39,506 nt of DNA from an uncultured Pelagibacteraceae bacterium (GTDB taxonomy: Bacteria; Pseudomonadota; Alphaproteobacteria; Pelagibacterales; Pelagibacteraceae). Below, piece by piece: positions 31,982 through 37,040 of this stretch. A model generated the notes under the pieces. That model was given only the letters and a program-made list of their open reading frames with translations. It had not been told where the DNA came from and ran no database searches. Each line of letters opens with the position of its first letter. Within the stretch, counting starts at the first letter, position 1. Where the stretch lies: the NCBI GenBank assembly GCA_902596045.1, contig CACJSJ010000010.1:1-39506 (forward strand), given 5' to 3'. Both the position numbers and the translations under genes were made by a program.

Positions 31982-33043
31982 TTAAAAGCAAACTATATGA
32001 TCAATATGAATTGGTCTTTTAATTCCAAATTTTTCATCCACCTCGTGTTGATGAATATGATGTGAATGAACAAATACAGGAATTAGGGTATTACTAGGTG
32101 TTTTTAAAGTATATATAAAACTTGTTCCTCTAAATTTTCTATCAACAACTTCTAACTGTAAATTACTTTTATCATCATGTTGTAAATCTTCTGGCTGTAT
32201 TAAAAGTTTTACATTAGATCCTATTGGAAATGGTTTTACAAAATTGCCAGTTATTGTTCCTAGATCTTCATTATCTAGACTTTTTGGACTTGTAACTTTA
32301 GCAGGGATCAATATGCCTCTATTTAAAAAATTTACTACCTCAATAGAATTTGGGAAATGGTAAACTTTATAGGGATCATCAAATTGTTTTAGTTTTTGAT
32401 TTAAAATTATTCCACATTTTGAACCTAAATAAAAAGCTTCATATGAGTCATGAGTGACTATAATAGTCGTTATCTTAAGTTTTTTTAAAATTTTTTTTAA
32501 TCTTACTTGTATTTCCTCCTTAAAACTTTGATCAACATTAGATAATGGTTCATCTAGTAATAAAAGATCTGCTCCAGTTAATAAAGACCTTGCAAGCGAA
32601 GTCCTTTGAGCTTCCCCAGCGCTGATTTCATGAGGATACTGTTTTAATATATTGGATATATCTAATAAATTTATTATTTCTTTAAAACTAAGTTTTTTAT
32701 TTTTTTGTTTTTTATTTCTTTCTTCACCTAATAATATATTTTTTTCTACTGTGTAATGTGGAAACAAGCTATTTTCTTGAAATGCCAAGGAAATCTTTCT
32801 ATCTTCTGGTTCTACATTTATCTCTTTTGAAGATAATACTTTGCCATTGAGTTTAATTAAGCCTTTTTGAATCTTTTCTAATCCAGCTATTGTTCTTAGT
32901 ATTGTTGTTTTTCCAATACCTGATGGGCCTAAAAGGCAAATAGTGTCACCTTCATTTTCAATAGAAAAAGATACATTTTTAACCTTTGTTTTTCCACCAA
33001 TTATGAAATCAACATTTTTAACTTCTAAAAAATTATTACTCAT
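31982..33043 (-). CDS. fbpC: Ferric iron ABC transporter ATPase FbpC
   Basis: A 353-residue ATPase: Walker A GPSGIGKT near residue 37, signature ISAGEAQRTS, a variant of LSGGQ, Walker B LLLLDEPLSNVD and VTHDSYEAF. The last 110 residues form the TOBE-like regulatory part (NVKLLIQPEDLQ). It overlaps fbpB by 4 bases (ATGA) and completes a Fe(III)-type importer with FbpA and FbpB. Confidence 0.88.
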   Translation of the reverse strand: MSNNFLEVKNVDFIIGGKTKVKNVSFSIENEGDTICLLGPSGIGKTTILRTIAGLEKIQKGLIKLNGKVLSSKEINVEPEDRKISLAFQENSLFPHYTVEKNILLGEERNKKQKNKKLSFKEIINLLDISNILKQYPHEISAGEAQRTSLARSLLTGADLLLLDEPLSNVDQSFKEEIQVRLKKILKKLKITTIIVTHDSYEAFYLGSKCGIILNQKLKQFDDPYKVYHFPNSIEVVNFLNRGILIPAKVTSPKSLDNEDLGTITGNFVKPFPIGSNVKLLIQPEDLQHDDKSNLQLEVVDRKFRGTSFIYTLKTPSNTLIPVFVHSHHIHQHEVDEKFGIKRPIHIDHIVCF

Positions 33044-34659
33044 TTTTCTCTTAAAATATATTTAGATGTAATCATTATAAATATGGATGCAATTAAAATT
33101 AAAAATAATGAAGGAACAGCTGCAGCTTCTAATAAGTCTTCTGAAGCAGAAATATAAGCTGTGGTTGCAAAAGTTTCAAAATTAAATGGTCTTAGAATTA
33201 AAGTGATTGGTAATTCTCTTATAATTTCAAGAGAAATAAGTATACAAACAAATAAAAGTGAATTTCTTAAAAAAGGAACGTGAATTTTCAAAAAAGTTTT
33301 TTTCTTAGAATAACCAAGTAAATAAGAACTTTCATCGACTGACATATTTATTTTTTCATATCCAGATTTAATTCCATTAAAAGCTAACGAGTAAAATCTT
33401 ACAAAATAAACTATAATTAAACCGAGTATAGAGCCAATAAATAATTTTTTAATTGATAAGAAGCCAAATGCTTTGACAATATTTTCATCAAACCAAGCTA
33501 CAAAAGTTATAAAAGCAACAGCTAAAATCACACCTGGGATTGCATAACCTGAAATCGATAAAGTGGATAAGAAATTCAAAAATTTATTTTTTGATACTCT
33601 ATTACCATAATTAGAAATAAGAGAAAACAATATCAACACTAAACTAGATAATAAAACTAAATAAACTGTATTTAAGGTTAATACAATAATATCTAAGTCA
33701 AATAAATTTTCAGGAAATTTAATTGTCCAATATAACATTTGACTTAAAGGAAATAAAAAACTTAATGAAAAAATAGTAAAGCAGAATATAAATGCTAAAA
33801 AGGATTTACTTCCAGATAATTGTATTTTTTCTTTTTGTTTAAAACCACCTCTAACATTTAAATGATATCTTGCTTTTTTTCTTGATAGGTTCTCTAAGAT
33901 AAAGAGTGCAAATATAAACAAGAGTAAAAAAAAAGATAATCTATTTGAAAAAGCCAAATCATCAAAAGTTATCCAAGAATTATAAATTCCTGTTGTAAGA
34001 GTATTTATCGAAAAAAAGTCAACTGCACCAAATTCAGCTAATGTTTCCATCGCAACAAGAGACAATCCTGCTACAATAGCAGGTCGAGCAGACGGTAAAA
34101 TTAAAGAAAAAATGGATTTAAATTTTGAAAAACCAAGATTTCTTCCTAAATCAATTAGGTTTTGAGATTGATATAAAAAAGATGCTCTAGTGAGAATATA
34201 TACATATGCAAATAATGAAAAAGATAGCGAAAGTATTGCTCCCAAAATACCATCAAATTTTGGGATATTCTGATTATAATTTGCCTCGCCAAACAAATTT
34301 TTTAAAATAGTGAAAGCGGTTCCATAGTTTTCAAAAAAAGCAGTTAGTGAATAAGCATAAATATAAGGGGGTACTGCAAATGATAATATTAATGCCCATT
34401 TAAAAAAATCACATAATGGAAATTTATAGAATGAAACTAAATAAGCACATCCAATACCAAAAAAAAAAGTTAAAATTAAAACTGAAACTAACAAAATAAT
34501 TGAATTTAAAATATATTCAGCAAGAAAAGTTTCTTTCAGAATTTGATAATAATTTGATGTGTTTTCAAAAAAACTTATAGAAACTGTAAATATTGGAATT
34601 AAAACACTTATGGATATCAATATAGATGAAATTAACCAAATATTTAAGCTTTTAAACAT
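33040..34659 (-). CDS. fbpB: Ferric iron ABC transporter permease FbpB
   Basis: A 539-residue fused permease of about 12 helices with two BPD domains. Each has an EAA-type loop: DLGRNLGFSKFKSIFSLILP in the first half and ESSYLLGYSKKKTFLKIHVP in the second. This duplicated form is typical of FbpB/SfuB and ThiP; iron is favoured because fbpA next door has Fur-like sites and FbpA sequence. It is 334 bases from fbpA, an unusually wide gap for this genome. No Shine-Dalgarno is obvious. Confidence 0.9.
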   Translation of the reverse strand: MFKSLNIWLISSILISISVLIPIFTVSISFFENTSNYYQILKETFLAEYILNSIILLVSVLILTFFFGIGCAYLVSFYKFPLCDFFKWALILSFAVPPYIYAYSLTAFFENYGTAFTILKNLFGEANYNQNIPKFDGILGAILSLSFSLFAYVYILTRASFLYQSQNLIDLGRNLGFSKFKSIFSLILPSARPAIVAGLSLVAMETLAEFGAVDFFSINTLTTGIYNSWITFDDLAFSNRLSFFLLLFIFALFILENLSRKKARYHLNVRGGFKQKEKIQLSGSKSFLAFIFCFTIFSLSFLFPLSQMLYWTIKFPENLFDLDIIVLTLNTVYLVLLSSLVLILFSLISNYGNRVSKNKFLNFLSTLSISGYAIPGVILAVAFITFVAWFDENIVKAFGFLSIKKLFIGSILGLIIVYFVRFYSLAFNGIKSGYEKINMSVDESSYLLGYSKKKTFLKIHVPFLRNSLLFVCILISLEIIRELPITLILRPFNFETFATTAYISASEDLLEAAAVPSLFLILIASIFIMITSKYILREK

Positions 34660-34688
34660 AATTTTGGATTATAATATAGTTTAGTTTG

Positions 34689-34799
34689 TTGATATACCCT
34701 ATGAAAATCTTTTTGTGCCCAAAGCTAATTTAGGAAAGGGTAAGAATCCTAGCTGCGGAGACAGAGCTTTGAGCACATTAACAAAGAAAAATATATCAA
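34689..34799 (-). ncRNA. Structured intercistronic RNA element between fbpA and fbpB
   Basis: An outer helix pairs 34689-34696 (TTGATATA on plus) with 34792-34799. Inside, 34714-34726 pairs with 34765-34777 at 12 of 13 positions. The one plus-strand mismatch (C34719, A34772) becomes a G-U pair in minus-strand RNA, so the fold is perfect only in the fbp transcript. Two hairpins fill the centre: 34731-34735 with 34747-34751, and 34753-34755 with 34762-34764, making a three-way junction. It resembles a riboswitch or processing element; I know no matching class. Confidence 0.5.
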
Positions 34800-34987
34800 T
34801 TATTATTAAACGGAGTAAGAATATTTAAAATCTCTTCGTCTTTAATATCTGATAATTTCCTATTATTTATTCTACTTTTAATTTTGTTACACTCTGAAGA
34901 GCATGGTTCACAAGTTTCCTGACTACTATATGAACCGCTCACCTCAGAAGAATTATTTAAATCAAGAGTAAATAAATTCTTTTTCAC
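34796..34987 (-). CDS. Small cysteine-motif protein in fbp operon (63 aa, tentative)
   Basis: A GTG six bases after the fbpA stop opens 63 codons: MKKNLFTLDLNNSSEVSGSY, then SSQETCEPCSSECNKI, then a polar tail ending ILTPFNNN. The C-x2-C-x3-C cluster could hold a metal or iron-sulfur centre. No signal peptide and no recognised family. Its end overlaps the outer helix of the folded RNA element. The start codon and weak ribosome site (GGAAG) leave doubt; the position directly behind fbpA and the clustered cysteines favour a real gene. Confidence 0.4.
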   Translation of the reverse strand: MKKNLFTLDLNNSSEVSGSYSSQETCEPCSSECNKIKSRINNRKLSDIKDEEILNILTPFNNN

Positions 34988-34993
34988 TTATTA

Positions 34994-36022
34994 CTACTTC
35001 CAACCTGCGGCTGTCATTGCTTCTAATGCAGCAGCTTGATTTTTTCCATAAGAAGCTAACTTAGTATTCATATCTTGTTTGAAATCTAATCCTAAGTTAT
35101 TCACTACTAATGGACTTGGTGAAACACCATCAATCATTGGAAACTCAAAAGTATTGTTTGTAAAGTGCTCTTGAGATTGTGGAGTTAATAAAAACTCTAC
35201 AAGTTTAACGGCATTAGCTTTGTTAGGTGCACCTTTTACTAAAGCAGCACAGCTAACATTCATATGCGTTCCTCTATCGTTCTGATTAGGAAAAAAAGCT
35301 TTAACTTTTTTAGCAGCTTCTTGTTGTTCTGCACCTTTTTTACCAGATAACATTAAAGCTAAATAATAAGTGTTTGCCACAGCAATGTCAGCTTCTCCAG
35401 CAGCTACTGCCATAATTTGAGCTCTATCATTTCCTTTAGAATCTCTAGCCATATTTGCAACAACCCCTTTTGCCCATTCAGCTGTAGCTTTTTTTCCATT
35501 ATTTTCGATTAATGAAGCTACAAGAGATTTATTATATATGTTGCTAGATTTTCTTATCACTAATCTTCCTTTCCATTTAGGATCAGCTAGACCTTCATAA
35601 GTCATTCCAGATAGTTCAGCACCAGTTACTCTTTCAGGTGAATAATAAATTATTCTAGCTCTTTTTGCTATTCCAACCCATTTACTTGTTCTAAAACTTT
35701 TTGGAACAGCAGCTTTTATAGCTTTAGATGATAAACCACTTTGAAGATGACCTTTTGCATCCATAGCACCGCATCTTCCAGCGTCAGCAGTGATGTAAAG
35801 ATCTGCAGAAGAATCTGCACCCTCTTCAATTATTCTTTTTTCTAAAGCACCAGATTTTCCATTTATCAGGTTAACTTTAATTCCAGTCATACTTGTAAAC
35901 TTCGAATAAAGCTCAGAATCTGCTTTATAGTGTCTTGCATTAAAAATATTCACTTCATTTGCAACTGCGATAGCAGACACACATAAAGTCATTATTAATG
36001 CAAATATTGATATTTTTTTCAT
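34994..36022 (-). CDS. fbpA: Ferric iron-binding periplasmic protein FbpA
   Basis: About 342 residues from the ATG at 36022, which has AGGA upstream and starts a signal peptide MKKISIFALIMTLCVSAIAVA. The frame runs back to 36166 but those residues cover the operator and resemble no known start. The mature protein begins NEVNIFNARHYKADSELYSKF, like FbpA/FutA proteins with an early Tyr-rich iron site; NTYYLALML near residue 220 gives the paired tyrosines that bind Fe(III). It delivers iron to FbpBC. Fur-like control is expected from the sites upstream. Confidence 0.93.
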   Translation of the reverse strand: MKKISIFALIMTLCVSAIAVANEVNIFNARHYKADSELYSKFTSMTGIKVNLINGKSGALEKRIIEEGADSSADLYITADAGRCGAMDAKGHLQSGLSSKAIKAAVPKSFRTSKWVGIAKRARIIYYSPERVTGAELSGMTYEGLADPKWKGRLVIRKSSNIYNKSLVASLIENNGKKATAEWAKGVVANMARDSKGNDRAQIMAVAAGEADIAVANTYYLALMLSGKKGAEQQEAAKKVKAFFPNQNDRGTHMNVSCAALVKGAPNKANAVKLVEFLLTPQSQEHFTNNTFEFPMIDGVSPSPLVVNNLGLDFKQDMNTKLASYGKNQAAALEAMTAAGWK

Positions 36023-36053
36023 ATATTCCTTAATATTTAAGTTATTTTGCGAA

Positions 36054-36068
36054 TGAGAATTATTCTCA
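36054..36068 (-). promoter_or_regulatory. Fur-box-like palindrome upstream of fbpA (site 1)
   Basis: TGAGAATTATTCTCA is a perfect 7-1-7 palindrome matching the Fur consensus TGATAAT-n-ATTATCA at most positions. It lies 32 bases upstream of the fbpA start, suited to iron-dependent repression by Fur. Confidence 0.7.
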
Positions 36069-36075
36069 ATGCGAA

Positions 36076-36090
36076 TGATAATCAATCGCA
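36076..36090 (-). promoter_or_regulatory. Fur-box-like site upstream of fbpA (site 2)
   Basis: TGATAATCAATCGCA has one exact half-site TGATAAT and a degenerate second half. It is centred 22 bases from site 1, about two helical turns, and both are preceded by GCGAA, so two Fur dimers could bind on one face. Confidence 0.5.
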
Positions 36091-36152
36091 TATAGTGTCG
36101 CAGTTGTAAAGAGTTTTTTTTAAAATTTCTAAATTTATATCTATCTATTAGA

Positions 36153-37040
36153 CTATTTCCAGTCACCTATCTTGCTAAACAAGAAGTTTCTAAAAGCCTG
36201 AACTCTTGCGGTATTTTTTAGTGATTGAGGATAAACGAAATGAGCCTCTGTAATAGGTCCCTCTGATTTAGGGAGAACTTTTATAATATTGTTTGAATTT
36301 GTAACTAAATACTCTGGTAAAGCGGCTAATCCAACCCCTGACTCAACTGCTAAGAGTAAACCCATAACACTGTTAACTTTCATTATTGTTTTTCTTTTTT
36401 TTCCATCATGCATTCCAAGTTTTAACGCCCAATCAGGATTATAAACTGGTGAAGGAGCACCTTTTCCAAATGATATAAATTTATGTTTATTTAAATCACC
36501 AACAGTTTTAGGCATTCCGTGTTTTTCTAAATATTTATTTGAACCATATATATAATACTTAATATCAACTAGCTTTTTTTGAATATAATTAAGTTGCTTA
36601 GGTCTTCTCATGAAAATACCAATATCAGCTTGTCTAGTACTCAAATCTAACTCTTTATCATCAAAAACAAGCTCAATTTCTATTTCTGGATTTAAGCTCA
36701 TAAATTCTTGAATTCTTGGTGTTAACCAGTGAGTCCCAAAGCTTCTCACAGTAGTGATTGTTAGTTTGCCTGTTGGTTTATTTTTTTGATCTCCTAAAGA
36801 AGTTTCTACCTCTTTTAACTTACCGATAACTTCATGCGCTGTTTTAAATACATATTCGCCATTTTCAGTAAGTGTTAACCCTCTAGCATGTCTTTCAAAT
36901 AATTGAACTTTTAAATCTTGTTCCAAAGACTGAATTTGTCTACTAATTGCTGATTGACTAAGATTCAAATTAATTGTGGCATTAGTAAAACTGCCAGCCT
37001 CAGCGACAGCATGAAATATTTTTAACTTATCCCAATCCAT
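36153..37040 (-). CDS. LysR-family transcriptional regulator
   Basis: A 295-residue regulator: N-terminal winged helix 1-65 (WDKLKIFHAVAEAGSFTNAT, then NLSQSAISRQIQSLEQDL), effector domain from about residue 90 with VRSFGTHWLTPRIQEF and ESGVGLAALPEYLV. Its ATG shares one base with the acuI stop, so it is co-translated with the reductase and is not divergent as most LysR genes are. The effector is unknown; an acuI- or folE-linked metabolite is a guess. Confidence 0.95.
   Translation of the reverse strand: MDWDKLKIFHAVAEAGSFTNATINLNLSQSAISRQIQSLEQDLKVQLFERHARGLTLTENGEYVFKTAHEVIGKLKEVETSLGDQKNKPTGKLTITTVRSFGTHWLTPRIQEFMSLNPEIEIELVFDDKELDLSTRQADIGIFMRRPKQLNYIQKKLVDIKYYIYGSNKYLEKHGMPKTVGDLNKHKFISFGKGAPSPVYNPDWALKLGMHDGKKRKTIMKVNSVMGLLLAVESGVGLAALPEYLVTNSNNIIKVLPKSEGPITEAHFVYPQSLKNTARVQAFRNFLFSKIGDWK

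Follow-up and report, generated by a model that had tools for sequence, protein, structure and literature searches.

The structured RNA that lies between the ferric-iron genes fbpA and fbpB of an uncultured Pelagibacteraceae bacterium is, with near certainty, the potC RNA already held in Rfam (RF01751), and we place it very confidently inside an iron operon. Comparison of the same position across the genus showed that most of the Pelagibacter examined have a hairpin slot there, of which potC represents one allele. New here are the iron-uptake context of potC, an unannotated small gene upstream of it, and its membership in a fast-changing hairpin at the same spot.

potC RNA lies in a ferric-iron operon

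The window, which is the whole stretch of DNA analysed, is 39,506 nt long. A scan of its full length against Rfam at gathering scores returned a single match, to RF01751 (58.6 bits by cmscan against a gathering score of 44, E 6.2e-10), which was not cut off and spanned positions 1-70 of the 70 in the model. A sequence-only reading of this DNA had offered the structure as a possible new RNA; since the match exceeds the gathering score and the fold is significant, the structure is real and already catalogued. The features of the locus are:

34994-36166, minus strand: gene for a ferric-iron binding protein of the fbpA/sfuC type
34796-34987, minus strand: unannotated small ORF of 63 codons with a GTG start and a CxPCxxxC motif
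34709-34782, minus strand: core of the potC RNA (RF01751)
33040-34659, minus strand: gene for a double-domain permease of the fbpB/sfuB type
31982-33043, minus strand: gene for an ABC ATPase of the fbpC/sfuA type, overlapping fbpB by 4 bases

The fbpA product matched the PDB entries 6g7n (E 3.5e-85) and 2pt1 (6.1e-85) as well as Pfam SBP, and its start codon is probably internal to the ORF at 34994-36166. The RNA thus lies, as had been claimed, between the gene of a ferric-iron binding protein and that of its permease. The intervening gap (34660-34993) had been called unusually wide, a description that survives only in part: it is mostly coding on the minus strand, and because the conserved ORF at 34796-34987 fills most of it the non-coding gap shrinks to 34660-34795. 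Downstream of fbpC come azlC and azlD (Pfam E 3.6e-35 and 1.7e-21). The best NCBIfam models for fbpB were molybdate, tungstate and 2-aminoethylphosphonate permeases, none of them near its own cut-off, with PotB far below; the name potC may have its origin in such permease-model matches of the downstream gene. In a study of strain HTCC1062 (PMC2864753), iron limitation raised transcripts of sfuC 16-fold, sfuB 10.4-fold, sfuA 5.0-fold and azlC 2.1-fold, these values being inductions in another strain and not abundances. The gene order of the window agrees with the sfuC-sfuB-sfuA-azlC order of that strain.

Across related loci the order of the operon is fbpA, the 63-codon ORF with its cysteine motif, the RNA, an optional peroxiredoxin gene, fbpB and fbpC. 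In 50 of 152 oriented loci the RNA and fbpB had a peroxiredoxin-like gene between them, and two such genes gave Pfam Redoxin matches at E 1.5e-24 and 2.5e-25. The distribution of the gene was uneven: with kinship ignored, it was found in 45/77 loci collected through potC (L001-L078) versus 5/75 loci anchored on fbpB (L087-L161), and two of these five, L088 and L092, also have the loop motif UUACCC. The potC family has reportedly been described upstream of either a transporter gene or a peroxiredoxin gene; since the peroxiredoxin gene is optional before fbpB, these two kinds of downstream gene amount to one operon. In line with that description, fbpB is the next gene in the window, and fbpB or a Redoxin-family gene follows the other copies. 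The columns of the table that lists potC are said to stand for RNA, cis-regulatory and riboswitch. In Weinberg et al. 2010 (PMC2864571), the potC row of this table reads y/y/?, with the remark 'Marine only'. The literature searched, from which most subscription journals were out of reach, yielded no functional study of potC RNA; one paper that gives the accession RF01751 proved to be a list of data sets.

The family turned up in 8 of the 101 near relatives and in 27 of 397 genomes from the order; in draws from the class (1/385) and phylum (1/398) it was confined to the window's own genome. All four counts were made with strict filters that lose weak matches. The counts of 8/101 and 27/397 still include a doubtful match in a genome of another family (G085, locus L008), which scored 33 bits and lies inside an open frame; since it is under the cut-off and in that frame, it was left out of the locus counts. 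An exact pattern of the core gave 47 matches in named genomes, every one titled Pelagibacteraceae or Pelagibacter, in agreement with a marine-only family. A search of viral contigs with one core pattern gave zero exact matches, diverged copies being beyond such a search, and a phage origin of the RNA was dropped on this result.

The structure covaries and is read on the minus strand

The elements of the fold in the window are:

34786-34799, minus strand: 5' part of the outer helix in the window fold, overlapping the end of the small ORF
34765-34777, minus strand: 5' arm of the closing helix P1 (13 pairs), covarying in related copies
34753-34764, minus strand: mini-hairpin exposing UCUCC (34757-34761), seen in the window and L045 only among 63 aligned rows
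34731-34751, minus strand: stem P2 (5 pairs), whose loop (34736-34746) holds UUACCC (34738-34743)
34714-34726, minus strand: 3' arm of P1, covarying in related copies
34691-34703, minus strand: 3' partner of the outer helix in the window fold, containing AGGGUA (34695-34700)

On the minus strand 34708-34783 folds at -24.5 kcal/mol (z -3.57, 2/200 shuffles as good), and on the plus strand at -21.6 kcal/mol (z -2.14, 4/200 shuffles as good); the longer stretch 34640-34850 (211 nt) gave z -2.23, with 4/200 shuffles as good. The closing helix of 13 positions reported by the sequence-only reading was recovered as the 13 pairs of P1, as was its sole irregular pair, 34772/34719, which is U-G on minus and A/C on plus. 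The three-way junction exists in the window, where P1 encloses the mini-hairpin and P2, but its third stem depends on five inserted nucleotides that, among the 63 aligned copies, the window shares with its sister L045 alone. The extra outer helix, too, is present in the window fold but is not general: at least five flank pairs formed in 11 of 25 representative potC folds and fewer in 14, the flanks being U- and A-runs that are prone to pair easily. P1 is followed on the minus strand of the window by an A-run, without a U-run, and ends 54 nt before the fbpB start, so that it cannot cover that start directly.

We ran a covariance model built from 29 representatives on 63 sources and aligned the 63 matches. 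In the 55 distinct rows, 98.0% of 748 cells were paired, 7 of 14 pairs had changed on both sides, and there were 75 cells with both-side changes versus 23.3 in shuffles, whereas sliding the 3' side left 26-48% paired with 0-3 both-side-change pairs. Of the aligned copies, 31 of 63 had come from a pattern that contains UUACCC and part of P2. The 32 others, in 30 distinct rows, behaved alike: 97.0% of 398 cells paired, 8 of 14 pairs changed on both sides, and 49 both-side-change cells versus 14.4 in shuffles. Both alignments were fitted to the model, which biases these figures in its favour, and in neither test (55 and 30 rows) was the count of further pair types higher than in shuffles. A lack of covarying pairs had been named as the outcome that would speak against the structure; pairs do covary in related copies. 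Wobbles are common in P1, with a G-U at its base in 26 of 55 rows and a U-G at the model's fifth P1 pair in 8 of 55. Because these pairs would mismatch on the opposite strand, the RNA is the minus-strand transcript. The covarying pairs and the wobbles together bear out the earlier argument that the element works as RNA within the fbp transcript.

A conserved small ORF precedes the RNA

The unannotated ORF begins a few bases past the fbpA stop and ends at 34796, immediately upstream of P1. An equivalent CxPC ORF places its stop codon 41-56 nt before UACCC in 77/77 potC loci, and a profile recovered the ORF in 69 of 75 fbpB-chosen loci. Its median dN/dS was 0.32 (60 sequences compared over a 32-codon block, with 1416 usable pairs out of 1770), two members had no match in Pfam, and among 190 genomes drawn from the class it was present only in the window's own. 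The predicted structure, two short helices with a mean pLDDT of 67.7 and pTM of 0.41, was too weak a model, and a fold assignment was dropped. As the conserved ORF stops upstream of P1 we ruled out a coding origin of the RNA structure; the sequence-only reading had named a protein-coding signal across the same bases as contrary evidence, and such a signal exists next door only. In L148 the small ORF was not found, and the region resembles a frameshifted remnant of it with the hairpin still there.

Most Pelagibacter examined carry a hairpin at the same place

The fbpB permease was present in 87 of 121 genomes of the genus, and its upstream stretch was taken for 75, ten genomes already being in our set and two containing only the end of the gene. 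The 152 oriented loci gave 124 distinct slot sequences and, at 90%, 65 representatives (25 potC, 40 fbpB-anchored). Because the loci share kinship and a genome is sometimes represented more than once, the Fisher p-values and the cell counts given here overstate independence. For 63 of these representatives the fold was better than that of 95 in 100 shuffles (median z -4.2), the folds of L104 and L148 alone failing to beat shuffles. A model built from potC alone had sense-direction matches to the slot in 42 of 66 fbpB-anchored loci (E <= 0.01), and stems and loops vary strongly in sequence among the slots listed. From the upstream stop to the hairpin the median distance is 15 nt (range 0-77), and from the end of the hairpin to the next start it is 35 nt (range 3-165), figures (n=65) that include at least two mis-picked hairpins, L101 and L148. 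The short spacing to the upstream stop holds whether the upstream gene is the small ORF or fbpA. In a later set of loci, L169 has a 12-nt gap without a hairpin and L167 has no clear hairpin.

A tree built from 64 FbpA tails does not group the loop types but scatters them, which suggests that recombination may have taken place near the slot; fbpA and slot could have been recombined, so independent origins are not countable. The FbpA of the window (L007) groups with that of L100, whose slot hairpin differs in type. Two further observations concern individual slots: L101 and L184 seemingly hold two tandem hairpins, the second with a UGUCUCCUUA-type loop, and a near-invariant UUAUAAGGCGGAUUAUAA stands ahead of the fbpB start in many non-potC alleles, for example L139, L102 and L135. 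This last sequence is an inverted repeat that would expose GGCGGA in its loop.

Another family of Pelagibacterales (f2) has a different hairpin behind fbpA:

L188, positions 58-154: f2 RNA element, also in L177, L180-L182 and L187-L206

Its core, ATTAGTATC, was found where expected in 24 of 26 loci, L178 and L179 being without the motif. In an alignment of 16 of the 24 loci, from which L195 and seven near-copies were left out, the 14-pair stem was 98.5% paired over 196 cells in 14 distinct rows, with 3 pairs changed on both sides (9/500 shuffles as high) and 8 such cells versus 2.8 in shuffles. Three members gave fold z values of -5.9, -3.9 and -4.8. The loop is pyrimidine-rich and strongly conserved, and ends in AUUAGUAUC. 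Six loci (L177-L182) scanned against Rfam up to E 0.1 had no match. The next gene after the hairpin is a Redoxin gene in some loci (L177, Pfam E 8.6e-24) and fbpB in others. In L195 the 3' half of the stem is lost, and what is left runs into an apparent peroxiredoxin gene remnant.

Loop motifs and their partners

UUACCC was present in all 63 aligned potC rows, and UCUCC in 47 of them. As the pattern that found 31 of these copies contains UUACCC, its invariance rests on the other 32, where it was kept in 32/32, and UCUCC in 19/32. In the fbpB-anchored set UUACCC occurred in 15 of 65 distinct fbpB-adjacent slots, and here it had a counterpart: GGGUAA lay near the fbpB start in 10 of 15 slots with UUACCC versus 0 of 50 without (Fisher p 1.7e-8, with kinship ignored and near-copies counted). 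UUACCC follows a U or an A, and the complement of that base stands directly behind GGGUAA in 10 of 11 distinct slots, which include one from the potC set (L031); in the eleventh, L096, a second overlapping copy fits by inspection. Inspection also gave two further xUUACCC/GGGUAAy cases, L170 and L173, one with a U-G pair, and L170 in addition matches potC at 36.4 bits, under the cut-off.

A partner of this type was not enriched in potC proper, where it was found in 3 of 19 fbpB slots versus 3.8 expected in a shuffle test and in none of six peroxiredoxin slots. A k-mer scan of 25 representatives together with the shuffle test gave no consistent cis partner for UUACCC in potC proper, and this candidate was set aside. 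In the window AGGGUA (34695-34700) is complementary to UACCCU of the loop, and this best complement of 6 nt between loop and start region is within chance (p 0.20), short of what a pseudoknot repressor would be expected to show. Over the 65 slots the longest complement between loop and downstream sequence reached p < 0.05 in five (L018, L056, L122, L130 and L152), about as many as by chance, and the loop/start duplex energy beat shuffles in 2 of 9 UUACCC slots and 0 of 14 UCUCC slots. UCUCC itself was enriched, in 31 of 65 hairpins versus 5.8 expected from shuffles and, outside the potC set, in 15 of 40 fbpB-anchored hairpins versus 1.4 expected. Pairing of the UCUCC loop with the fbpB start region was rejected (0/14 at p < 0.05).

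Possible functions of the slot

Our preferred reading, which may quite possibly hold but is offered tentatively, is that the RNA is an intercistronic element setting the output of the permease relative to that of the binding protein. potC would then be a cis-acting hairpin in the Pelagibacter ferric-iron operon that sets the membrane part of the transporter apart from the abundant binding-protein cistron and keeps the former lower. It could do so by having the 3' end of the fbpA/small-ORF message shielded or processed and, in alleles close to the next gene, by having the start covered by the 3' strand of P1, a few bases before the AUG; in a variant of this second route the loop would pair with the fbpB start region. 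Several observations point this way: spacing is tighter to the upstream stop than to the next start and a hairpin is general at this place; UUACCC is associated with GGGUAA (10/15 vs 0/50); and induction falls along the operon in HTCC1062, sfuC > sfuB > sfuA (PMC2864753). Against the intercistronic reading, P1 of the window is too far from the fbpB start, the partner is not enriched in potC proper, and some relatives are without a hairpin. Moreover, since UUACCC is kept in all aligned copies without a partner, the loop must have a role that this reading leaves unexplained.

A hairpin that is purely a 3'-end stabiliser or an RNase processing site, without translation control, would account for the close spacing to the upstream stop codon, for a stem that is kept with free sequence in many relatives, and for the U- and A-rich single strands that flank the element, but it is unlikely because the invariant UUACCC of potC, the enrichment of UCUCC and the UUACCC/GGGUAA association would go unexplained. 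The hairpin could instead be a docking site for a trans factor, either a small RNA or an RNA-binding protein of the cold-shock type, that reads UCUCC and UUACCC. UCUCC is enriched over shuffles, the k-mer scan and shuffle test left potC proper without a cis partner, and the f2 hairpin, in the corresponding position, has a loop that is rich in pyrimidines and strongly conserved; CspE and CspL are reported to follow iron availability and have been proposed to act on SfuC synthesis (Smith et al. 2010, PMC2864753). The factor itself is hypothetical, however, and we regard such docking as distinctly improbable.

Conserved loops also argue for a riboswitch in which iron or another small molecule would control fbpB or the peroxiredoxin gene. 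In the non-pattern potC copies UUACCC (32/32) and UCUCC (19/32) persist while the stems covary, a peroxiredoxin gene follows 45/77 potC loci versus 5/75 fbpB-anchored loci (the loci being related), the genes of the operon serve iron uptake or peroxide defence, and one of the three entries for potC in the table of Weinberg et al. (PMC2864571), reportedly the riboswitch one, is a '?'. Yet the potC core has not been kept in most relatives that carry this operon, UUACCC being found in 15/65 slots, and the position of the element is tied to the upstream gene, not to the start that would be regulated. As other switches could have replaced the core, its lack of conservation only lowers this reading, to which we give little credence. 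A partial transcription terminator, also raised by the sequence-only reading, scarcely deserves belief: a hairpin does lie shortly past a stop codon, and among the slots listed a U-rich stretch follows some non-potC alleles, but in potC it is mostly an A-rich stretch that follows P1, as the A-run does in the window, and 34600-36300 has zero terminator-like sites on the minus strand.

A broader version of the intercistronic reading, about which we are doubtful, is that a dedicated RNA slot lies behind the binding-protein cistron in which potC, UCUCC, UUACCC/GGGUAA and f2 hairpins would be interchangeable, stems and loops being exchanged repeatedly while the task stays the same. Under iron stress they would adjust how much binding protein is made relative to permease (and peroxiredoxin), some by loop/start pairing and some through a factor like CspL or CspE. 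If this were true, 'potC' would be a single snapshot of an expression valve that evolves fast, and not a riboswitch. Our data also suggest that an Rfam family may cover just a narrow part of a regulatory position that is broader and evolves fast. potC has been a catalogued orphan with a misleading name, and its context in a ferric-iron operon gives it a testable role, for which the natural alleles of the slot are ready-made constructs. Its hosts belong to SAR11, among the most abundant heterotrophs of the ocean (PMC2864753).

Comparison with known systems

Known systems resemble the slot in different respects. The REP element between malE and malF has the equivalent position in an ABC operon, following the gene for the binding protein, and would likewise lower the downstream genes; the potC slot differs in having conserved loop motifs and, in some alleles, complementarity between loop and start. 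That complementarity is what the xUUACCC/GGGUAAy alleles share with translational repressors of the rpsO/preQ1 pseudoknot type, a likeness that is within chance in potC proper and in the window. A candidate structured region upstream of sfu in HTCC1062 belongs to the same operon, but it lies (Meyer et al. 2009, PMC2704228; Smith et al. 2010, PMC2864753) in the gap between SAR11_1239 and sfuC, whereas the RNA described here lies in the gap between sfuC and sfuB. Closest is potC RNA (RF01751) as catalogued, with which the window has in common the whole model, P1, P2, the UUACCC loop and a marine bacterial host. The window and L045 differ from it by the 5-nt insertion, which makes a third stem out of the junction, and the permease downstream belongs here to a ferric-iron operon, not to a polyamine one.
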